From assembly GCA_030425195.1 (NCBI GenBank), contig JAUIAV010000005.1, positions 1 to 64,000 on the forward strand: a stretch of 64,000 bases of DNA. The letters run 5' to 3'. Every line of letters begins with the position of its first letter. The stretch's first letter is position 1. Under the pieces are notes generated by a model. That model was given only the letters and a program-made list of their open reading frames with translations. It was not told the DNA's origin and did no database searches. This document shows, one piece after another, positions 51,414-63,835 of this stretch. A program made the position numbers and the translations under genes. This stretch comes from Gammaproteobacteria bacterium (GTDB lineage: Bacteria > Pseudomonadota > Gammaproteobacteria > Pseudomonadales > Azotimanducaceae).

Positions 51414-52619
51414 ATGGTGCGGTTACTCTCCAGAGACCCGCCTTTGACCGCGGACACCCCCAGACTCAGAACGCTCTGTGTATTCGGAACACGGCCGGAA
51501 GCCATCAAGATGGCGCCTGTCGCGACCGCGCTCGCCGGGCATCCACACATGGACGCGCGGGTCTGTGTGACCGGACAGCACCGCGAAATGCTGGATCAGG
51601 TTCTAAAACTGTTCGACATCCAGCCGGACCACGACCTCCGTGTCATGCAACCTGATCAGGATCTGAACGAACTGACCGGCAGGATTCTCATCGGCATGCG
51701 CGACGTGCTGAAAGCCGAGACCCCCGACATCGTCCTCGTTCACGGTGATACTACGACCACATTCGCCACCGCCCTTGCCTGCTATTACCAGCAGATCCCG
51801 GTCGCCCATGTCGAGGCGGGGCTGAGAACGGGAAATCTGCTGTCCCCCTGGCCGGAGGAGGCCAACCGGAAGCTGACGGGCGCTCTGACCACCCTGCATT
51901 TCGCGCCGACCGAGGGCGCCCGGGAGAATCTGCTCCGCGAGGGCGTATCGGAAGACAGGATTCTGGTAACGGGCAATACGGTGATCGATGCGCTGCTGCG
52001 TGTCATCTCACGCCTTCAGACCGACGCCGCGCTCCGAGCCAGCCTTCGAGACCAGTTTCCCGATCTCCGCTGCGGAGCCCGACTGCTGCTCGTTACCGGA
52101 CATCGGCGGGAGAGCTTCGGCGGGGGCTTCGAGCGGATCTGCACAGCGTTGAAGCAGATCGCGTCGGCGTATCCCGATCTGGACATCGTCTATCCCGTTC
52201 ACCTGAACCCGAATGTGCAGGGGCCGGTGAATCGGGCGCTCCGGGACGTGGAGAACGTTCACCTCGTCGCGCCGCTCGACTACCTTCCGTTCGTCTACCT
52301 CATGAACCGCGCGCATCTGCTGATGACCGACTCCGGAGGTATCCAGGAGGAAGCGCCTTCTCTGGGTAAGCCGGTGTTGGTCATGCGCGACACCACCGAG
52401 CGCCCTGAGGCGGTCACCGCAGGCACCGTGCGTCTGGTGGGCACGTCGGTCGAGGCGATGGTCGGCAGCCTGCGCGAACTGCTGGATGATCAGCAGGCAT
52501 ATGACGCCATGAGCTACGCACACAATCCCTACGGAGATGGCAAAGCTGCCGAGCGGATACTGAATCGGCTTCTGGAGGACAGCCACCACCTGACGAGACG
52601 GACTGCGAATGGCATTTGA
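51414..52619 (+). CDS. wecB: UDP-N-acetylglucosamine 2-epimerase (non-hydrolysing)
   Basis: [23 protein letters not shown]...[33 protein letters not shown]...[29 protein letters not shown]. True start may be TTG at 51444 because ATG 51414 overlaps a TAAAAT box. Confidence 0.96.
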
Positions 52620-53856
52620 CCGTGTAGCCGTCATCGGGCTCGGATACATAGGCCTGCCCACGGCCGCCGTGCTCGCTTCCAGGAAGCTCGAGGTGATCGG
52701 CGTCGACGTTCAACCGAGCGTGGTCGACACCATCAATCGGGGCGAGATTCACATCGTTGAACCGGATCTGGACATGGTGGTCAAGGCCGCGGTGAATCAG
52801 GGATACCTGCGCGCCAGCCTGACGCCCGAACCTGCGGACGCCTTCCTGATCGCGGTACCAACACCCTTCCAGGGCGATCATCAGCCCGATCTGAGCTACA
52901 TCGAGGCAGCAGGTCGGGCAATCGCTCCGGTGCTGAAATCCGGCGACCTGGTCATTCTCGAATCCACCTCGCCCGTGGGAGCAACCGAGCAGCTCGCCGA
53001 ATGGCTGGCGGATGAGCGGCCCGACCTCAGCTTTCCGCAGCAGTCGGGTGACGCGTCGGACATCCGCATCGCCCACTGCCCCGAGCGGGTGCTGCCCGGA
53101 CACGTTCTGAGAGAGCTGGTGCAGAACGACCGGGTGGTTGGAGGGATGACGCCGTCCTGCTCCGCAGCGGCCGTCGACCTGTATCGACAGTTCGTCGATG
53201 CGGACTGTCTGGTTACGGATGTCCGAACGGCGGAGATGTGCAAGCTCACTGAAAACAGCTTCCGGGACGTCAACATCGCATTCGCCAACGAGCTGTCGCT
53301 GATCTGTGACCGCCACGGCATCGACGTCTGGAACCTGATCCGGCTCGCGAATCATCATCCCAGGGTACAGATTCTCCAGCCCGGCCCGGGGGTCGGCGGT
53401 CACTGCATTGCCGTGGATCCATGGTTCATCGTCAGCCAGACACCCGAGGAAGCACGCCTGATCCGGACGGCCCGTGAGCGCAACGACGGCAAGCCGACGT
53501 TCGTCGCCGATCGCATCGAAGCACAGGCAAACGCGCTGGGAATCCGCGATATCGTCTGCATGGGGATCACTTTCAAGCCCGATATCGACGATGTCAGACA
53601 GAGCCCGTCGCTGATCGTCGTCAGACAGCTTCTGGACCGGGGTTTCAGATTGTCCATTGTCGAACCCAACCTGCAGCAGATTCCGGAGGAGCTCGAGCCC
53701 CATCGACCTCAGCTGATCAGCCTCGAGGAAGCGCTCAGCAGACACTCCGACGCCCTGTTCTCCGTGCTTGTCGCCCATCAGCAGTTCCAGCCGCCTGACA
53801 TTCTCGAAGGGCGCCATGCGCTGGACTTCTGCGGGGCGCTCGCAGGCGGAAGGTGA
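52609..53856 (+). CDS. wecC: UDP-N-acetyl-D-mannosamine dehydrogenase
   Basis: [34 protein letters not shown]...[14 protein letters not shown]; follows wecB. Confidence 0.95.
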
Positions 53857-53904: not shown

Positions 53905-54660
53905 ATGCAGAAGCTTGATAGCGTAAAGAAACACAAGGCCTGGCAGGAGTTTCAGGACCAGACGAACATCTCCCTGCGGAACCGCTACGTTTACTTCGCG
54001 ATCGGCAAGGTGGCCAACTCCACCATCAAGCACTGTCTGTTCCAGATCGAATATGAAGATCAACCCAGGGAGGCGCTTTCGCTGTTCGATAAAAGAGCAT
54101 CCCCCCTGCTGTCGCCGTTCCAGCTCCGCGACGAGGATTTTCTGAACATCATCAACGGCCGGGAGTTCTTCAAGTTCGCCATCGTCAGGAACCCGTTTTC
54201 CCGTCTGCTGTCATGTTATCTGGATCGGATCCGCACCCGGAGCTCGCCGCCATCACGGGCGATCAGGCGCTACATACGTGCCCAGGGAGGCGAGCCCAAC
54301 CCGCTCACCTTTGCGGTATTCGTGCGGGCCGCGTGCAGTCAGGATTCACCGCAGCAGAACGCACACTGGCGTGTGCAATGGGATGATATCTGCTATCCGG
54401 AGATCGACTTCGATTTCATCGGCCATTTCGAGCATCTCTGGGAAGACCTTGAGACGGTCAACCGGAAGATCTGGGGGAGACTGCGGCCCGAATTCGCTGA
54501 TCCGCAGGCGAACTACTCACCGAAGCGTACAGACGCCAGCGCTCAGCTGAGAGAGTTCTACACGGACGAACTGATCGAGCTGGTGCTCGATCGATACCGT
54601 ATGGATTTCGAGACCTTCGGCTACGGGGATTCCATCGAGAATCTGATGCCACGCCGCTGA
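53905..54660 (+). CDS. Sulfotransferase family 2 (carbohydrate sulfotransferase-like)
   Basis: PAPS-site motifs YFAIGKVANSTIKHCL and FKFAIVRNPFSRLLSCYLDR. Confidence 0.85.
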   Translation: MQKLDSVKKHKAWQEFQDQTNISLRNRYVYFAIGKVANSTIKHCLFQIEYEDQPREALSLFDKRASPLLSPFQLRDEDFLNIINGREFFKFAIVRNPFSRLLSCYLDRIRTRSSPPSRAIRRYIRAQGGEPNPLTFAVFVRAACSQDSPQQNAHWRVQWDDICYPEIDFDFIGHFEHLWEDLETVNRKIWGRLRPEFADPQANYSPKRTDASAQLREFYTDELIELVLDRYRMDFETFGYGDSIENLMPRR

Positions 54661-54705: not shown

Positions 54706-57057
54706 CTAAAGTCTGCGGGCAAGCTCTGCAGACGTAAGGAACACGGATTCGCTGCAGCCACCTACAACGTGAAGGCCTTCATCCGTTGTCTGGGCAACTA
54801 GCGACTCTTCACAACCCGTTGGAGCGATTCGAATCCTGGATATCAGCACCTCGAGACCGTCTCGCTCGGCAGTGGCAAAATCCAGCTCGACAGTCAGATT
54901 CGACGCCTCCAACCCGGACAAACCAAGCTCACCGAACCTGACCTCTAACTGGTCGGACGCCAATACCGGCTTCAGCTCCACAACCGTCGAATCGCGCACG
55001 AAGTTAGCTACCATACGTTCACCGTCAGAGAGACGGGCAACATCAACCAGAGTTCCGAGAACCGCATCATCCGTTGCGGAAACGTCCAGCCACCTGCTGA
55101 GCTGTCGAGGAAAGTTGGACCTGGCGAACAGCCTGCAACTGTGCTCACCCTTACTCGCCATCTGCAACGCGCCATCGACCGCCCGACCGCGACAACCACC
55201 CGGGCCCATTGTGCATCCCGGATTGCGGTTCGGTTCAATCCAGGTGACCGTGTGACTCCGTGCCGAACGTGAAAGACTTCGCGGGACCTGCCGGAGCTCA
55301 CCGATGACAGGGCCATCACCCACCCGGACGGTCAGAGCGCCGAGGTCCCAGTCCCTGTTGTGGGTTCGGTGGTATGGCATGGAGGTCAAACCAAAGGCTA
55401 CTGGTGTCTGGTCAACCCAGGACTCCGCCAGCGCAAGCCCGGAATCACCCAGAACCTCGCAGGTGAATTCCGTCGGGTCACCGGATTCCTCCGCATCGCT
55501 GCCTCCGGTTTTCAGAGCGATTCCCGGATAAAGTGCCTCTCTAACAGGCAAGCTCATCCAATCGGCCTGATACAGCGCCATGAGATTTCTCATGTCTTCG
55601 CGCCAGAGATAATCCGAACTGTCGCCGTAGTGGAGCCAGCGGCGCCCACTGGAACTCGTCAGCTTCCGTGAGATCGTCGAAAATTCCCGGAGGACATGAC
55701 CAAAGTAGCGTTCAAGGCCTTCCTGCAAGTCAATCCTTTCACAGCGCGCTGTCACCCAGGCACCGAAGGTACTCTCGGCGAGAAACACCTCACCGTAAGA
55801 GAGCGACTCGAGATACACCCCTTCGTCGAACGATGCATCGAGAAGCCCATCGAACACATCTCTGAGCTTCTTCCCTTCCGACGTCGACTCACAGCCGCTG
55901 ATCATCAGCTCCGCACCGATGAGATTCCCGAGAATGATCGCTGCATGATTGGTCGACCTTCGAATCCAATGCGTCGTCGACGGGTACCGTTCGGAGAGGA
56001 TGGGGCCAAGTGCCTGTTCCTGGAACTTCAGCTCTGGATCCTCCGCCTGCAGGGGCATTCCGTAAGCTCGAGCCAGCAGGAGGGCTGTCGCATACGCCGC
56101 CGGAAGGAATCCGTTCGCCCAGTTACCTCTATCCCAATCTGCCAGATCGTCGCTCCTCTGCAATTCACCCCAGTCGAGAATTGCGTTGTACGGCCGCCAC
56201 GACGGCCAACTGTGAAGCGTTTGCACGGTTTCCCGAGCGACTGTCGACGCCCTTGAAATGATCGATCGGCAGGCATCGTCGTGTCGTATCCGCTCATCGA
56301 ACCCGCAGATTCCAACAGCCTCCGCCACTAGCAACAGCGATGCGAAGCGATGCTGGGACTGCAGTTCCCAGGAGACGACACTGGACACCTCTCCGAGCGG
56401 ACCTTTGATCTGCTCCAACTGGGACAAAGGAACCGCATGCCACTTACTTCCGGAGTAACGCTGCACGTTTGCAGCATACCCCTCCGCGGACCAGCGAAGG
56501 CTCACATGCTCGCCTTTCCCGATCTTCGTGCACGACACTGAAAAACACAGATGAGTATCACCGTCCAGCGCGAAGACGTTCACGGAAACCCATGGTGATT
56601 GCGGAGAGACGTACCCGCTCAGGTGCTCGACTGATAGCGGGAACACGTATTCTTCGTTGATCGTTAATGAGCCACCACCCAGCGGGCTCATCTCAAGGTA
56701 GATGGCCTGGGATTCAGGGACAAACAGAGCCTCCCTAGATCCGTATCGGGGTTTGCCGGGGCTCGGCATGAAGTAAAACCGATGGCCAGTCACAAAGCCG
56801 TGATAACGACTCAACTCGTTACGCTCATATTCATCCAGCCAGGACACAGCGTGCGCAAGCAGTGCCGCTGCACTCTCATGCTCCTCGGCCGGGACGGGAA
56901 GCGCAAACAAGCTGGAAAAAACCTCCGACCGATCCACGGGCGGGTTTTCGGATTCGGATGGCGCCCCGCAAGCAGACAGCAGAAACGACAGGGCGAGTAC
57001 ATGAAACTGAAGAAGCCGCACAACCAGCCAGGAGCGGTTGACAATCCAGCGGATCAA
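54706..57057 (-). CDS. Heparinase II/III-like polysaccharide lyase, lipoprotein
   Basis: Lipobox LSFLLSACGAP; NHAAIILGNLIGAELMISG...DGLLDASFDEGVYLESLSYGEVF...; TTG start overlaps the upstream GT stop (TTGA). Confidence 0.7.
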   Translation of the reverse strand: MIRWIVNRSWLVVRLLQFHVLALSFLLSACGAPSESENPPVDRSEVFSSLFALPVPAEEHESAAALLAHAVSWLDEYERNELSRYHGFVTGHRFYFMPSPGKPRYGSREALFVPESQAIYLEMSPLGGGSLTINEEYVFPLSVEHLSGYVSPQSPWVSVNVFALDGDTHLCFSVSCTKIGKGEHVSLRWSAEGYAANVQRYSGSKWHAVPLSQLEQIKGPLGEVSSVVSWELQSQHRFASLLLVAEAVGICGFDERIRHDDACRSIISRASTVARETVQTLHSWPSWRPYNAILDWGELQRSDDLADWDRGNWANGFLPAAYATALLLARAYGMPLQAEDPELKFQEQALGPILSERYPSTTHWIRRSTNHAAIILGNLIGAELMISGCESTSEGKKLRDVFDGLLDASFDEGVYLESLSYGEVFLAESTFGAWVTARCERIDLQEGLERYFGHVLREFSTISRKLTSSSGRRWLHYGDSSDYLWREDMRNLMALYQADWMSLPVREALYPGIALKTGGSDAEESGDPTEFTCEVLGDSGLALAESWVDQTPVAFGLTSMPYHRTHNRDWDLGALTVRVGDGPVIGELRQVPRSLSRSARSHTVTWIEPNRNPGCTMGPGGCRGRAVDGALQMASKGEHSCRLFARSNFPRQLSRWLDVSATDDAVLGTLVDVARLSDGERMVANFVRDSTVVELKPVLASDQLEVRFGELGLSGLEASNLTVELDFATAERDGLEVLISRIRIAPTGCEESLVAQTTDEGLHVVGGCSESVFLTSAELARRL

Positions 57058-58679
57058 TCTTCGGCCAACAATCCGGTCAAGCGACGGGCAACAGAGTCGA
57101 ATGTATGCGGCTTCGAGGCTTCGAACAACCTGTCTACGGCCATGTTCCCGACATCCTCAACCCGCATTGCCTGCCTGACCTGTCTCGCAGCTCCGGAGCT
57201 GGAGCGGGCAAACAGAGGATAGTCCGCACCCAGAAAGTCAACGTTGATCTGATTCGGATACAGCAGGACGGGAACGCCGCAGGCCCCGTACTCCAGAAGC
57301 TTGGTCGAGAGCTCGCGCGTTCCTTCCTCCAGGGACGCCCTGCGCCAGGCCCAGGCCAGGTCCATATCCTCGAGCCGGCTCAGCACTTCCTGACGGGGGA
57401 CCGATCCGTACCAGATGATTCCGGGCTCTGCTCTCAGCCGATTCCGCAACCGGTTCCGGAAAGCCGGGTCGCCCTGGAACTTGTCACCGAAGATGTGCAG
57501 CTCAGCGTCCAGGCCCTCACTGCGAAGTCCGCGGAACACGTCGAGCAGCTCTTCCACTGCCCAGTCGGGCGCGAACTTTCCGGCATACACGATCCTGTAG
57601 GGGCCCTCGCGCCGGTCGCGTTCCCGTGGCTTCAGGTCTACCGGGGGAATCATGGGGGGCAGAACGGCCAGCTTGGCATCCGCCGCGGGATCGAGGCTCC
57701 GGTAGTACTCGCCGATTTCCTCGGTCTGACACAGAATCAGCCGGGCCGACGCAATGATCTGCCGCAGTTCCCCGCGCTCACGCCTGCTCAGGCTTTCCCG
57801 CGGAGGCAGGTCGGTGATATACGGCACGAGGCGACCGGCTAGCCAGTCATGACCCGCCGCGATGGCATTCGCTTCGAAACCACGAATGACAACCCACTTG
57901 AACGGCGACCCGGCGTGCATGGATCGAAGCACGGCCGGCAGCACCGAACCGGTGATGGGAGCGCCTTCCATGCACGTGATTCCGACTTCCGGATGAGCGC
58001 CGAGCGGAGCGATGACCGTATTTCTGCTCGGCGCACGCTTCAGAATCAGCTCCACCTGCGCTGTCTCCGTCAGCGCGAAGACCTGGGCGAGCGAAACGAG
58101 CCAGATCGATGAACCATCCACGATGTTCACATCGAGGTCCCCATACAGCGCGACCCGGTTCGGCCGATCCCGCTCGACGGACTTCAGAACCTTGAGCTCC
58201 GGTGGCGCCTTCAAAATACGGAGATTCCGGACGAACACCCTCGATCGTGCCTGCCATGGCGCGGCCGTCACCCTGACCGTTTCCGCATCCGGCGGAACAC
58301 CGATGGAGCATCGGCAGCGGCCTTCCCGGTCGGGTTCCAGCGGCGCCGTGTCCCGGTCAGCTCCCGCAAACCCCCCGCCCTGAACCGGCACGGAGGAGCC
58401 GTTTCCGTCGGTGAACTCGAATCGCAGCCCGGCTACCCTCGAGTCGGCCTCTTCCGTGCTGGACAGCAGCTCGAGCTCCACCGTGATGAGATCGATACCC
58501 GCACACCCGGCGGTTGCGGAAGGCCTCTCCCGGATTTCCGACCAGGATCTGTCACGCACCCGGTCGGGTGCTTTGGCGTTGAACCAGCGGAAGAATCGAT
58601 ACCAGCCGCGACTGCGAAGCCACTGAACCTCCACCTGGACGTAGGCGGTCTGTTGACGGACCAGGTCGATATCCGTCAT
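57054..58679 (-). CDS. Glycosyltransferase (GT4-like C-terminal) with N-terminal beta-rich domain
   Basis: C-terminal YRIVYAGKFAPDWAVEELLDVFRGL...LHIFGDK...TKLLEYGACGVPVLLYP; start MTDIDLVRQQ. Track ORF to 59363 is over-extended. Confidence 0.82.
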   Translation of the reverse strand: MTDIDLVRQQTAYVQVEVQWLRSRGWYRFFRWFNAKAPDRVRDRSWSEIRERPSATAGCAGIDLITVELELLSSTEEADSRVAGLRFEFTDGNGSSVPVQGGGFAGADRDTAPLEPDREGRCRCSIGVPPDAETVRVTAAPWQARSRVFVRNLRILKAPPELKVLKSVERDRPNRVALYGDLDVNIVDGSSIWLVSLAQVFALTETAQVELILKRAPSRNTVIAPLGAHPEVGITCMEGAPITGSVLPAVLRSMHAGSPFKWVVIRGFEANAIAAGHDWLAGRLVPYITDLPPRESLSRRERGELRQIIASARLILCQTEEIGEYYRSLDPAADAKLAVLPPMIPPVDLKPRERDRREGPYRIVYAGKFAPDWAVEELLDVFRGLRSEGLDAELHIFGDKFQGDPAFRNRLRNRLRAEPGIIWYGSVPRQEVLSRLEDMDLAWAWRRASLEEGTRELSTKLLEYGACGVPVLLYPNQINVDFLGADYPLFARSSSGAARQVRQAMRVEDVGNMAVDRLFEASKPHTFDSVARRLTGLLAED

Positions 58680-58684
58680 CCCCG

Positions 58685-59749
58685 TCAACCCTGCAAAGCC
58701 TTGTCCAGCAGACTCAGGTAGTGAGATCCGAGCCGTGACGGGCTGAAGGATTCCAGGCGACGCTCCATTCCCTCGAGTACCTTCTGCCGCTCTTCCGAAC
58801 CACCAGCCAGATGCCGCAATCCACGCACCGCACCCGGAACATCTCCGTCGTCGTAGATCCAGCCCGATTCTCCGGATTCGACGAATTCCGCAACCGCACC
58901 GGAGCGGCGGGAAACGGCCGGCACGCCACACCGGGCTGCCTCGTGTACGACCATCCCGAAGGACTCCGAGATCGAGCACTGCAGAAGCATGCCGCCGCCC
59001 GCCGCAACTTCGCGGTACAGCGACGGCATCTCCGCATATGGCACGTTGTGCAGCCATCGGACGACGCGGGTCAGCCCGTAGTCCAGCACTCGATCGAGAA
59101 ACTCGTTCATGTCCCGGTCGGGCAACCGTCCACCGGTGACGAAGTAGGCCCGCGGGTCTTTCAGCTCGGCGAAGTACTCCCGCATGATCTGCAGCGCCTC
59201 CTCCCAGTTCTTGTGCTCTGAAAGTTTTCCTACCCAGATGAGGTCTGCCGACCTGCTGGACGGACCCGGAGAGAAGAGATCCGCATCGACGATGTTGGCG
59301 CACACCTGGACCTGACTGTCGGGCACGGCGGGAAATCGGTGCAGTATCTGCGCCTTGAGCCATTCCGACGGGACGACGACCATCCTGCAGGCTGTCAGCG
59401 CTTCGTTGCTGTTTTTTAGAATCACGGACTCGATCCCGCTGTGGATCTCATAGATCAGCGCGGTCCGGAGATCGGCAACCGCGAGGCTGGTGGCGAGTTC
59501 CGGCATGTCGACGATCGACACGACGTCGTAGTCGTCCGCCAGCTCACCGACCGCATCGAGCTCGGCCCGGGACACGGTGACGTCTGCCATGCCGTTGGCA
59601 AGCAGATCGTCGACCCCGCCATAATCGACGCCGAAGAGACCGTGAACCTCGTAGCCGGCTGATCGCAAGGCAGACAGGCGCTGCTTGATGGCCGAAGAAA
59701 CACCGCCGAGGTTACAGAACGGGTAGACGTAGAGCAGCCGTCTGGACAA
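58685..59749 (-). CDS. Glycosyltransferase family 4
   Basis: LLYVYPFCNLGGVSSAIKQRLSAL...ADLIWVGKLSEHKNWEEALQIM...CSISESFGMVVHEAARCGVPAVSRRSGAVAEFV; TTG start next to the upstream stop. Confidence 0.87.
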   Translation of the reverse strand: MSRRLLYVYPFCNLGGVSSAIKQRLSALRSAGYEVHGLFGVDYGGVDDLLANGMADVTVSRAELDAVGELADDYDVVSIVDMPELATSLAVADLRTALIYEIHSGIESVILKNSNEALTACRMVVVPSEWLKAQILHRFPAVPDSQVQVCANIVDADLFSPGPSSRSADLIWVGKLSEHKNWEEALQIMREYFAELKDPRAYFVTGGRLPDRDMNEFLDRVLDYGLTRVVRWLHNVPYAEMPSLYREVAAGGGMLLQCSISESFGMVVHEAARCGVPAVSRRSGAVAEFVESGESGWIYDDGDVPGAVRGLRHLAGGSEERQKVLEGMERRLESFSPSRLGSHYLSLLDKALQG

Positions 59750-59750
59750 T

Positions 59751-60716
59751 CTAAACCGCCACGGCGATGCCGGTATCCGGTCCGGAATCGGAAAGTGTCG
59801 ACAGATACCTGGCCTTGGTGCTGTCACCGCTGCCTCGGAATTCGAACGACCAGCCGTTGGCGACGAAGTAATTCGCGGACAGCACCGAATAGTATCCGGT
59901 CTGATCGACGGTCAGCGTGCGTGAAACGCCGGAACCGACGGTAGCAGCAATCTGCTGATAGCTGTCGTCAAAAAGATCGACGCTGAAGCGGTGCACGTCG
60001 GCGCTCCCGTCGCCATCCGTCCCGTCGCAGAAGAACAGACCGGTTCCCTCGACAGGCGGGGCCTGGCTGTCACCCAGACGGCCCTGATACCAGACGGTGA
60101 CGGGAGAACGGCCATCGAGGGCTTCGATGACGGAAAAGAGTGTTTTCCGCTGGACGTCGATCGTCTCACCGATCGCTCTGACAGACAGGTCCGATACGAG
60201 AACGTTTCCATCCGCGGACCAGCCGACGAGATATACGCGCATCACCGCCGCACCATCGGGCGGGTCGACTGCCAGTCGGAAAGTCTCGCCTTCCGGCGAA
60301 GCCGGCAGATAGCTGAAGAAGCCCCAGCGGCCGGAAAAAGTGAAGCCGCTTTCCTCCCAGCCTATGGTCTCCCGAGCTTTGTCCAGATACTCAATCGAGA
60401 GCAGGACCGCTTTTGCCTGACTGATCTCGCTCGAAAGGCGCATTCTGATCTCGCAGCGATGGCCTTCAGAGAGATCAAGCTCTGTGGTCGTCTGACGGTT
60501 TTTCCAGAGCATGGCAGTCCCCGCCTGCACCGGCAGCCACATTTTCAGATCTGCAAGGAACGAGGCCCCTTCCCTGAGGACGATCTTGAGGAACTGCCGG
60601 AGCAGCAGCCCGGTCCGCAACAGTCTGGAAGAAGTGATCCTGGATCTTTCTTCCTGAGCCCGGCGCAACTCGGCGACGGCCGCAGCTAACTCACGGTCGG
60701 AACTGACAGTGCTCAT
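59751..60716 (-). CDS. Hypothetical beta-rich protein of the glycan locus
   Basis: MSTVSSDRELAAAVAELRRAQEERSRITSSRLLRTGLLLRQF...; shares a beta-sandwich-like block with the 57054-58679 product; first gene of a tightly packed minus-strand operon. Confidence 0.75.
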   Translation of the reverse strand: MSTVSSDRELAAAVAELRRAQEERSRITSSRLLRTGLLLRQFLKIVLREGASFLADLKMWLPVQAGTAMLWKNRQTTTELDLSEGHRCEIRMRLSSEISQAKAVLLSIEYLDKARETIGWEESGFTFSGRWGFFSYLPASPEGETFRLAVDPPDGAAVMRVYLVGWSADGNVLVSDLSVRAIGETIDVQRKTLFSVIEALDGRSPVTVWYQGRLGDSQAPPVEGTGLFFCDGTDGDGSADVHRFSVDLFDDSYQQIAATVGSGVSRTLTVDQTGYYSVLSANYFVANGWSFEFRGSGDSTKARYLSTLSDSGPDTGIAVAV

Positions 60717-60792
60717 CGGCTCAGGTAGACTTCCGCAGGACGTCGAATTATCGCCCTTCGTCTTGGCAAATTCCACACGCCGCACACCCGGA

Positions 60793-60858
60793 CGCCGTAT
60801 ACATGCCGCACCGACGCCGCATGAACGCCGCATAGACGCCGCATAGACGCCGCATAGT
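60793..60858. repeat. 11-bp tandem repeat array, six units
   Basis: CGCCGTATACA TGCCGCACCGA CGCCGCATGAA CGCCGCATAGA CGCCGCATAGA CGCCGCATAGT; a related unit starts at 60778. Confidence 0.92.
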
Positions 60859-60860
60859 AA

Positions 60861-62630
60861 ATGAACCGACCACCAACGCCATCTGACACGCGGCCCGCGT
60901 CCGGAGTCCCTGGAACCGCCAGATGGCTGGTTTCACTGTCGATGAAGATGTTCCGGAGCTCGCCCTACGTCACGGTTCAGGTCATCTGCTTCACGCTGCT
61001 GGCTCAGGTCTGCCAGCTGCTGGCCATGCTGCTTCCGCTCAAGGTCATCCTCATGATGGGCTCAGACGGCATCCCGTCTTTCTTTCCTTCGTTCATGCAG
61101 ACCATGGAGAGAACGTCGCTCGTCATCGGGCTCAGCTTCGGTGCCGTTCTGCTGTATCTGGCCTATCTGGGAATGGCGACCGCCGCAGACCGCACCGCCG
61201 CCATCGGCGCCGCCTCACTCAATCGGCGGAATCAGAAGCTCGCCCTGTTCCCCAATCAGGAAGACTTCACCCGCGAGATCTACGCTCGCGTCGCCAGATC
61301 TTCGGCCGGACTCATCTTCACCCTGCTCGCTCTGACGGGGATCGGCATCGTCTACCCTCACCTCGCGGCAACGGCCGCGCTGTTCCTCCTGCTCGCCGGG
61401 GTCGTCGCAACCTATCTGAACAGCCGCTTCGAGCCGTTCCGCCAATGGCTGTCCTCACACTATGCGCCTCTGATCGGCAATCTCGCAGCAGCCTGTCTCT
61501 TCGTCTGCCTGGGAGTGGCCATTTACGACTATCTGAACGGCACGTTTCCGCCGTTTCTCTTCGCCGTCATATCGATTCTGCTCACCCGACAGTACCTCAC
61601 CAAGCTTCAGGCAAGCCTGATAGAAATGTTCCGTCTCGTCGGGCAGCGCGCGAAGCTCGACAGCCTCGTTTTCTTCTCCGTGCCCTTTGCGGGGCAGGGT
61701 AAGCGCATCAGCGAAAAAGACATTCTGGATCCCGAAACCCTCGAGACCTGGCTGCCGGACTTTCTGGGTTCAGCCACGGGCAGAGAGACCCGGATCCTGG
61801 GTACGCAGTGGGTTCAGCTTGGGTCTCCCATGGCTCTGCTCTTCGAATGCCGTACTCGGGACGCAGCCGGTGACGGGTACTACTACGTGAAGATATATCC
61901 TCGATCGAATCGCCACCTGGCTGAGCACGAACGCATGCTCGCCCGGGAGCCGGGGGCGCTGGAGCTGATGCCCGAACTCGTCGGGAACATGCGCATGGGC
62001 GACGATGAATGCCTGCTCTTCTCCGCCCTCGGAACATCCGGTGTTCCGAACGATCAGTTCAGCCGGCTTCACCAGCAGATGCTGAAGACCACCGCACGGT
62101 TCAAACCGTCGTCCGGACTCGCTCGCGCCTACTCGCGCTCGAAAGTCCGCATGATCGAACGGATCGATGAGGATCTGTGCGGTCTGCTGAGGCTGGCGGC
62201 GACCTCGGCCGAAGAGCGTCAGCAGGTGAATGACTTTCAGCGGCGGCTGCCTTCCCTCAGGAACGAGGTCGACAACCTGCCGCTGTGGCTGTTCAGCCCG
62301 GATCTGAATGGCAATACGCTCCGGATCGGCCCGCAGGGAAATCCCCTCTGTCTGCATTGGCCCAGATGGTCGATCGAGCCGCTCGGAGCCGGCCTGCCAA
62401 TTGCCCTGCTGCCGGAGCTGGAGACCGTCCTCGAGCTCGACAGCGGACACCGTCCCGACCTGAAGGGCGCCAGTCCGATCCACATCAGGCTGGCCGCCTA
62501 CCTCTTCAGGCTCGATCGTTTGTGCGGTCGCAACCGCTATCGGGATGGCCTCAGGCTGCTGCCTTTCATTCTGTCGCCGGAGTATGCCGCGAACGACGTT
62601 CCGTCGTCCGTCATGACATCCGACTACTGA
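60861..62630 (+). CDS. Polytopic membrane protein (ABC-exporter TMD-like) with C-terminal APH/pseudokinase-like domain
   Basis: About six hydrophobic segments in the first ~270 aa, then YYYVKIYPRSNRHLAEHERML...CLLFSALG...LPLWLFSPDLNGNTLRIGPQGNPLCLHW resembling a degenerate APH fold. Confidence 0.7.
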   Translation: MNRPPTPSDTRPASGVPGTARWLVSLSMKMFRSSPYVTVQVICFTLLAQVCQLLAMLLPLKVILMMGSDGIPSFFPSFMQTMERTSLVIGLSFGAVLLYLAYLGMATAADRTAAIGAASLNRRNQKLALFPNQEDFTREIYARVARSSAGLIFTLLALTGIGIVYPHLAATAALFLLLAGVVATYLNSRFEPFRQWLSSHYAPLIGNLAAACLFVCLGVAIYDYLNGTFPPFLFAVISILLTRQYLTKLQASLIEMFRLVGQRAKLDSLVFFSVPFAGQGKRISEKDILDPETLETWLPDFLGSATGRETRILGTQWVQLGSPMALLFECRTRDAAGDGYYYVKIYPRSNRHLAEHERMLAREPGALELMPELVGNMRMGDDECLLFSALGTSGVPNDQFSRLHQQMLKTTARFKPSSGLARAYSRSKVRMIERIDEDLCGLLRLAATSAEERQQVNDFQRRLPSLRNEVDNLPLWLFSPDLNGNTLRIGPQGNPLCLHWPRWSIEPLGAGLPIALLPELETVLELDSGHRPDLKGASPIHIRLAAYLFRLDRLCGRNRYRDGLRLLPFILSPEYAANDVPSSVMTSDY

Positions 62631-63835
62631 GCAGCAACGCCGAGCAGGATGTCGAGCAGATTCCGAGACTGAACCTCCCGGCTGAATGACGGGGACGCCT
62701 GTCGTCCGGACTGCCCCAGTTTCTCAACCAGTCCGGGCACATCTCTGAGCTCTGCAATCGCTTCCACCATCCTCTTCACGTCCCCAGCCGGTACGTGAAC
62801 GCCACATCCCCATGACGCCAGCAGCTCAGAGGCGTCTCCTGGTGGTGCTGCCAGCAGAACCGGCTTGCCCATCGCCATCGCCTCGAAGATCTTTGAGGGT
62901 ATGGCCGTCTCCAGCAGGGGCAGATCGCGCAGGGCCACGAGTGACACGTCACAGCGCCCGATCACTGCCGGCATGAGCTGGCGGGGTTGAGGTGGAACGA
63001 AGTAGACGTTCTCGATCTGCCGCTCCGCCCGACGATCCACGAGCGCCTGGTGCTGAGCGCCGTCCCCGACGAAGAGAAACGCCACATCAGGCATCTGTTC
63101 AGCAACCTCCAGCACGAATTCCAGTCCGTGTGCGAGCCCCTGAGTACCAAAGTAACCCACAATGAAGCGCTGGTTCATATCCGGCAGCACATCCGGTTCA
63201 GCCGGAGCGGCAGGCGAGAACAGTTCGAGCTCCACACCATTCAGAACCACCTCCACCGTCGATGGGTCGAAACCGCGCCCGGTGATCTCGGTCCGGAATC
63301 CTTCGGTAAGGCAGACGATTTTCGCTGCCCGCCGGTACATGAACTCCTCCAGCTGCCGCAGCACCCAGAACGTCGGCGACTTCCACATCGTACCCAGAGA
63401 TACGGCGAAAGCCGGCCAGAGGTCTCCTATCTCGAGCACGAAGGGCCGCCCTCGGAGAAGCGCAGCCAGGCAACCGGCAAGCCCGGCGAAGAAATTTGGC
63501 GATGCTGCGACCACCACATCTGCCTGCTTGTGCAGAGTGGCGACGGGAGTGGCCGTGAACAGGAAGCTCAGAAGATCCAGCTGCCGCTTCCATTTCCCTT
63601 TGTTCTCGGCCATGTAGGTCTTCACCCGGATCACACGGACGCCCCCGATATCCTCCGTCTGGTACCAGCTGTTCCGGTAGCCCGGAAAAACCCTGCCTCT
63701 GGGAAAGTTGGGTACGCTTGTCACCACGGTAACGTCGTGCCCCCAACTCACCCAGTACTTTGCGCGTTCGAAGACACGGCTTGCCGCCGCATTGGTCTCC
63801 GGGTGGAAGAAGTCCGTTACGAAGAGAATCCGCAC
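62624..63835 (-). CDS. Glycosyltransferase, WbuB-like GT4
   Basis: MRILFVTDFFHPETNAAASRVFERAKYWVSWGHDVTVVTSVPNFPRGRVFPGYRN...VLEIGDLWPAF...IPSKIFEAMAMGKPVLLA. Confidence 0.92.
   Translation of the reverse strand: MRILFVTDFFHPETNAAASRVFERAKYWVSWGHDVTVVTSVPNFPRGRVFPGYRNSWYQTEDIGGVRVIRVKTYMAENKGKWKRQLDLLSFLFTATPVATLHKQADVVVAASPNFFAGLAGCLAALLRGRPFVLEIGDLWPAFAVSLGTMWKSPTFWVLRQLEEFMYRRAAKIVCLTEGFRTEITGRGFDPSTVEVVLNGVELELFSPAAPAEPDVLPDMNQRFIVGYFGTQGLAHGLEFVLEVAEQMPDVAFLFVGDGAQHQALVDRRAERQIENVYFVPPQPRQLMPAVIGRCDVSLVALRDLPLLETAIPSKIFEAMAMGKPVLLAAPPGDASELLASWGCGVHVPAGDVKRMVEAIAELRDVPGLVEKLGQSGRQASPSFSREVQSRNLLDILLGVAAQ

Follow-up and report, generated by a model that had tools for sequence, protein, structure and literature searches.

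The window, a stretch of 64,000 nucleotides, carries on its plus strand an open reading frame of 589 codons in one intact frame with an ATG start. From the sequence alone, its product had been read as an ABC-exporter-like transmembrane (TM) domain fused to an APH-like pseudokinase domain, and every peptide quoted in that sequence-only reading is present in the 589-aa protein. The gene sits within a polysaccharide cluster (~50.5-69 kb of the contig) which also encodes a UDP-GlcNAc 2-epimerase, a UDP-sugar dehydrogenase, a sulfotransferase, several GT4 glycosyltransferases, a heparinase-like protein and a Wzy polymerase/ligase (Table 1). It is a lone plus-strand gene between minus-strand genes and is not co-directional with its glycosyltransferase neighbour. 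Two further cluster proteins, encoded on the minus strand at 59751-60833 and 54706-57057, gave no Pfam match; the latter belongs to the same family as a protein (L087:7196-9532) adjoining a Marinobacter relative of our gene.

An 11-bp tandem repeat, GACGCCGCATA, occupies positions 60791-60857 of the window (6.1 copies, 78% matches) and stops 3 bp upstream of the start codon, ahead of which a clear ribosome-binding site is not visible. Because 11 is not divisible by 3 and there is no clear ribosome-binding site, slippage in the repeat could change expression of the gene.

Table 1. Features of the locus in window coordinates; fractions of 34 refer to family members.
Feature	Position	Strand	Details
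Whole gene: ABC-exporter-like TM domain and APH-like putative pseudokinase domain	60861..62630	+	589 aa
Amphipathic elbow helix, ABC-exporter-like position	60906..60959	+	residues 16-33; model
Six predicted TM helices, N-in/C-in, short cytoplasmic loops	60963..61643	+	residues 35-261; model, loop charges
K61, TM1 (LPLK motif)	61041..61043	+	32/34; Q in two adhesin-locus members
R243, TM6	61587..61589	+	33/34; K in the remaining one
Predicted cytoplasmic APH/choline-kinase-fold domain	61713..62594	+	residues 285-578; model, Foldseek PDB, profile against APH
K344 (VKIY), beta3 ATP-lysine equivalent	61890..61892	+	K in 29/34
E357 (HLAEHE), alphaC glutamate	61929..61931	+	E in 34/34
Degenerate catalytic loop F478-S-P-D481-L-N-G-N (to 485), HGDxxxxN position	62292..62324	+	catalytic Asp in 13/34
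H499-W500, IDW/DFG position	62355..62360	+	Mg-binding Asp in 5/34 (H 12, N 10)
W503-S-I-E-P-L-G509, family signature WGxWxxEPLG	62367..62387	+	nearly invariant
Adjacent GT4 glycosyltransferase	62624..63835	-	cluster C1, as genes after the family gene elsewhere
GT4 glycosyltransferase, common to Halomonas/Marinobacter family loci	57054..59363	-	cluster C8, 9 loci; N-terminal start probably over-called
Carbohydrate sulfotransferase (PF03567), common to other family loci	53905..54660	+	C17
UDP-GlcNAc 2-epimerase and UDP-sugar dehydrogenase of the polysaccharide cluster	51414..53856	+	

A two-domain family in Gammaproteobacteria

The whole protein gave no significant match in a Pfam scan, which returned one irrelevant sub-threshold hit, and none among NCBIfam models and PDB chain sequences. 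No second copy was found in its own genome, and none of the 206 other genomes in its taxonomic family yielded a relative. PADLOC had no match to the protein, and a defence function was rejected. A single-protein search of GTDB genome contigs returned nothing, while the alignment-based search found relatives. Three full-length relatives of 20-29% identity came from 399 genomes scanned across the phylum; profiles built from them recovered members from 10 of 392 genomes in the order and more from the class. The GTDB genomes hold 19 named family loci, in Halomonas, Billgrantia, Chromohalobacter, Salinicola, Marinobacter, Microbulbifer, Zobellella, Stutzerimonas and Thioalkalivibrio. When a further 299 genomes of the phylum were sampled, none from outside that order contained a member, and no family gene was found on plasmids. 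Altogether the family comprises at least 36 gammaproteobacterial proteins, a count that is non-exhaustive since the genome samples were drawn subsets. It has no Pfam or NCBIfam model and no PDB sequence match, and among open papers it is apparently a conserved, undescribed family. Divergence within the family alignments (A1 and A3) was too high for a pattern search.

All relatives but one share the two-part architecture, and its recurrence in full-length relatives, both within the order (10 of 392 genomes) and in the wider class, indicates that the layout did not arise by chance. The exception is a 298-aa relative consisting of the membrane half only (L080:7760-8656, G1074), which shows that the TM domain also occurs on its own. 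Its gene adjoins that of a GT2 glycosyltransferase resembling the GT2 beside the family member at L043. The family tree mixes taxa, with Microbulbifer and Zobellella inside a Halomonas group; together with the sparse distribution, this suggests horizontal spread with gene clusters.

The degenerate kinase motifs described below could be taken as signs of a decaying, non-functional gene. This explanation is highly improbable and is contradicted by the selection data, as dN/dS over five species pairs was 0.06-0.15 for the TM domain and 0.15-0.22 for the pseudokinase domain, indicating that both halves are maintained by purifying selection. Moreover, the frames are intact at 36 diverse loci, and E357, P59 and G509 are invariant across the family.

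The kinase-like C-terminal half

An AF2 model was built on the 34-sequence family alignment and reached a mean pLDDT of 88.6; a single-sequence AF2 model of the window protein had a pLDDT of 40 and was not used. Confidence in the C-terminal domain was mostly above 90, with most of residues 285-570 above 85. When the model was searched against the PDB with Foldseek, the first match was pneumococcal LicA choline kinase (E 2.2e-5, probability 1.0), followed by APH(4)-Ia, fructosamine-3-kinase, APH(2''), MphH and CcrZ, and all 50 matches listed were APH/choline-kinase-type enzymes. The TM-scores against these kinases were only 0.4-0.5 (target-normalised), which marks the domain as a divergent member of the fold. 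We then compared the family profile, by hhalign, with APH proteins from the window's own genome. The score was 36.5 over 184 collinear columns spanning the lysine strand, the alphaC glutamate, the catalytic loop and the DW motif, as against 14.8 for the reversed APH alignment; 40 shuffles gave no more than 15.4, and eight other families no more than 16.9. Among the proteins retrieved with the family profile is a genuine soluble APH kinase (E 2.2e-4; motifs HGDLHRNN...VDWDRW; 43 bits against Pfam APH). The family itself falls below Pfam detection for APH (PF01636).

Together, the model and the profile alignment assign the C-terminal ~300 aa to the two-lobed, protein-kinase-like APH/choline-kinase fold. 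The sequence-only reading had proposed this fold by eye and had placed the VKIY lysine, the HLAEHE glutamate, an HGD-like loop and an IDW-like site; profile alignment, controls and fold match agree with each placement, and a C-terminal model of some other fold, which would have told against it, was not what emerged.

In common with APH and choline kinases (PF01636, LicA), the family keeps the fold, the ATP-lysine, the alphaC glutamate and the tryptophan that follows the Mg-site position, which is nearly invariant. It differs in its fused membrane domain and in the degradation of HGDxxxxN and the Mg-binding aspartate: where active APH enzymes have HGDxxxxN and IDW, the window protein has SPDLNGN and LHW. 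Substitution of the HGD histidine and the Mg-binding aspartate had been noticed earlier in the window protein, and it extends as degeneracy across the family, so the earlier suggestion of a pseudokinase holds for nearly all members; sugar or lipid binding, suggested alongside it, may be a role of the domain. Judged by its motifs, the domain thus has a kinase fold with at least one catalytic motif lost, and is a pseudokinase in nearly all members. The nucleotide pocket may persist in the family and may bind ATP; nearly all members are unlikely to catalyse Mg-dependent phosphotransfer.

A soluble 394-aa protein encoded in a glycosyltransferase context (L072:655-1839, G256) has intact APH motifs (HGDLHRNN, VDWDRW..PLG). 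Its motif is similar to the WGxWxxEPLG signature of the family and could mark the cytosolic ancestor type.

Only one of the 34 members, at L042, carries both the catalytic and the Mg-binding aspartate (HD...DW), so that loss of activity is not universal. Small cytidylyltransferase genes adjoin the family gene at L042, L047 and L075, with LicD-like transferases nearby, an arrangement that recalls the Lic phosphocholine pathway, whose APH-fold kinase is LicA. These neighbours, the retained motifs at L042 and the rank of LicA as best fold match would suit an active, membrane-tethered LicA-like small-molecule kinase feeding a phosphorylated substituent into the polymer. We regard this as quite unlikely, since the Mg-binding aspartate is missing in 29 of the 34 members and the catalytic one in 21, and the members at L047 and L075 also have no ATP-lysine.

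The membrane half and its likeness to ABC exporters

The several hydrophobic N-terminal helices first seen by eye resolve in the model into an elbow helix and six long helices (residues 35-67, 84-123, 133-164, 166-189, 191-225 and 232-261), with a tight turn between TM3 and TM4. The mean number of lysines and arginines was 4.4 at the N-terminus, 5.1 in the TM2-3 loop, 2.9 in the TM4-5 loop and 4.3 after TM6, and 0.9, 0.15 and 0.18 in the remaining loops; this distribution of positive charge predicts a cytoplasmic location for the kinase-like domain. Two conserved charged residues, K61 and R243, lie within the membrane.

The family TM profile was aligned with 30 ABC_membrane domains. Over the whole domain the score was 27.6 (reversed 16.7, shuffled at most 19.5, other families at most 18.1), and for TM3-TM4 against the PF00664 set it was 27.3 with P 2.7e-4 (reversed 14.2, shuffled at most 12.7). 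TM1, TM2 and TM5-6 alone did not rise above the controls, although the best matches of TM2 and TM5-6 fall at collinear positions. Searching 19 genomes with the TM profile gave an MsbA-like ABC TM domain as the best non-family match (E 0.012), followed by unrelated membrane proteins (E 0.05). Of the matches listed when a viral structure library was searched with Foldseek, just one was a transporter, a phage-encoded ABC exporter (probability 1.0, E 0.022). The PF00664 and PF13748 profiles matched no family locus in the genomes searched, and ABC_membrane_3 was rejected as the TM family after no family locus was matched in 19 genomes. PDB sequence-profile searches with either half returned nothing, and single-sequence and profile searches of Pfam and the PDB with the N-terminal half gave neither an ABC family nor any non-ABC family; a match of the latter kind would have told against the original assignment.

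Like the ABC_membrane (PF00664) exporters MsbA and PglK, the family combines in its model an elbow helix with six TM helices, resembles them in TM3-TM4 by profile, and has a C-terminal domain, predicted to be cytoplasmic, straight after TM6. Unlike them, it has no nucleotide-binding domain (NBD), far shorter loops of the kind that reach the NBD, and no significant family match. Neither Walker A nor LSGGQ follows the TM part, as had been reported, and the type IV exporter's NBD is replaced at residues 285-578 by the kinase-like domain. By comparison with MsbA, such a shortening of the two cytoplasmic loops would be expected where there is no NBD to drive them. SbmA/BacA (SLiPT) offers a parallel, being an ABC-exporter-related TM domain without an NBD, but it is proton-driven and has no kinase-like domain, and the family gave no PF05992 match in Pfam-A scans.

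The earlier ABC-type assignment finds moderate support in the TM3-TM4 profile, the listed Foldseek exporter and the layout; TM1, TM2 and TM5-6 taken singly stay within the controls. The failure of those helices to exceed the controls, and of any ABC family in Pfam or the PDB to match by single sequence or profile, would agree with an unrelated six-TM bundle whose ABC likeness is convergent, making the protein a membrane-anchored pseudokinase scaffold. We think this unlikely, given that the TM3-4 match tops every control, that Foldseek retrieved an ABC exporter, and that the elbow-helix layout is accompanied by collinear best matches for TM2, TM3-4 and TM5-6. A relation to the ABC-exporter TM domain is likely, and its derivation from such a domain, with the cytoplasmic loops shrinking as the NBD was lost, is well supported but not proven.

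Genomic setting and proposed role

Family genes lie mostly in Wzy-type exopolysaccharide or capsule clusters, often sulfated, where epimerase, dehydrogenase, sulfotransferase, Wzy and sugar-transferase genes recur. Two GT4 glycosyltransferase genes on the strand of the family gene come immediately after it at 15 of the 36 loci; in the Halomonas clade, sugar-phosphate transferase (PF02397) and Wzy genes lie downstream, and other loci are flanked by APS kinase and sulfotransferases. Two diverged members from the Halomonas family (L044 and L045) lie outside polysaccharide clusters, in giant-adhesin/type I secretion loci, together with HlyD, LuxR and a 1063-aa Mur-ligase-like protein (Mur_ligase_M/C). 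In both, K61 is replaced by Q and the Mg-site aspartate is kept.

We tentatively favour the view that the family protein is a polytopic inner-membrane scaffold or regulator of extracellular polysaccharide assembly. It would neither pump with ATP nor phosphorylate. Its TM domain, a probable dimer like ABC TM domains, would engage an anionic lipid-linked glycan intermediate through K61 and R243, and the pseudokinase would serve as a docking or regulatory module gated by a ligand (a nucleotide, a nucleotide-sugar or a glycan end), holding or regulating the GT4 glycosyltransferases encoded alongside. The fold, topology, motif loss, selection and context come from the computation, and the further steps are what we infer. 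Docking of glycosyltransferases cannot be the sole role, as L044 and L045 lie in adhesin loci and the relative at L080 has no kinase half. The opposite strands of the window gene and its glycosyltransferase neighbour also speak against the favoured view.

The logic of such a mechanism would be that of mycobacterial MviN, a MurJ flippase whose cytoplasmic pseudokinase (ActPs3), without ATP and Mg binding, recruits a regulator to the flippase (PMC12599244). Both proteins join a polytopic transport-type domain to a C-terminal cytoplasmic pseudokinase and are linked, in our case by context, to envelope glycan assembly. In MviN the TM part has the MOP/MurJ fold and the pseudokinase, which recruits an FHA protein, is of the Ser/Thr-kinase type, whereas the family has an ABC-exporter-like domain of six TM helices, no MurJ match and an APH/choline-kinase-type domain.

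In a study of Cobetia, Wzy-type loci without Wzx were described, and an unknown hypothetical protein was proposed as translocator (PMC11766843), which led us to check the family loci for Wzx. No PF01943/PF13440 flippase was found in the chromosome of G992, in G1154 or G1178, within 700 kb of the family gene in G252, or near it in G919. The window's own cluster has Wzy, and no Wzx was found inside it. The nearest Wzx-like gene, a weak Wzx/MOP match, lies ~19 kb past the window gene (L174:1306-2652, contig ~79.3-80.7 kb), with apparently unrelated genes between it and the polysaccharide cluster. A Wzx/MOP gene was found within 35 kb of the family gene in G705, G862 and G944, and in the same gene string in Marinobacter (L087, L089) and Halomonas socia (L092), and the idea that every family cluster is without Wzx was rejected. 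These mixed results indicate that the family does not simply stand in for Wzx at every locus, although it could do so in some clusters.

The main alternative to a scaffold or regulator is that the family protein is the clusters' flippase, an ATPase-less, ABC-derived TM domain that replaces Wzx in moving undecaprenyl-linked (sulfated) repeat units, driven by an ion gradient or by polymer pull, with the pseudokinase as gate or substrate checkpoint. Wzx proteins of the MOP type have 12-14 TM helices and match PF01943/PF13440; the family protein has six and no Pfam match. Most family loci have no Wzx nearby, K61 and R243 are conserved intramembrane residues, and PglK is an ABC flippase for a lipid-linked oligosaccharide (PMC5395944). 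SbmA transports on the proton gradient with an ABC-type TM domain and no NBD (PMC13316013), which keeps this explanation alive. Against it stand the Wzx/MOP genes named above, the incompleteness of Pfam-based detection for the hypervariable Wzx, by which some could be missed, and the adhesin-locus members, which have no obvious lipid-linked substrate and no K61. We consider a flippase role possible, although on the improbable side. A bolder proposal, unlikely in our view, is an undescribed class of envelope-glycan transporter in which the ATPase of an ABC exporter was swapped for an APH-type pseudokinase. Such a protein, gated by a ligand and independent of an ATPase, would act as flippase or checkpoint for lipid-linked, often sulfated polysaccharide units and would fill the missing-Wzx gap in halophile clusters.

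To our knowledge, no described protein carries a kinase-like domain in place of the ATPase on an ABC-exporter-type TM domain. If the ABC origin is true, exporter TM domains would have outlived their motor by two routes, that of SbmA and that of this family, and MviN would be joined by a second, independent case of a pseudokinase coupled to a membrane transport domain in the assembly of envelope glycans. The family would further offer a testable candidate for the workings of those sulfated Wzy-type polysaccharide clusters in marine and halophilic bacteria in which Wzx is not found.
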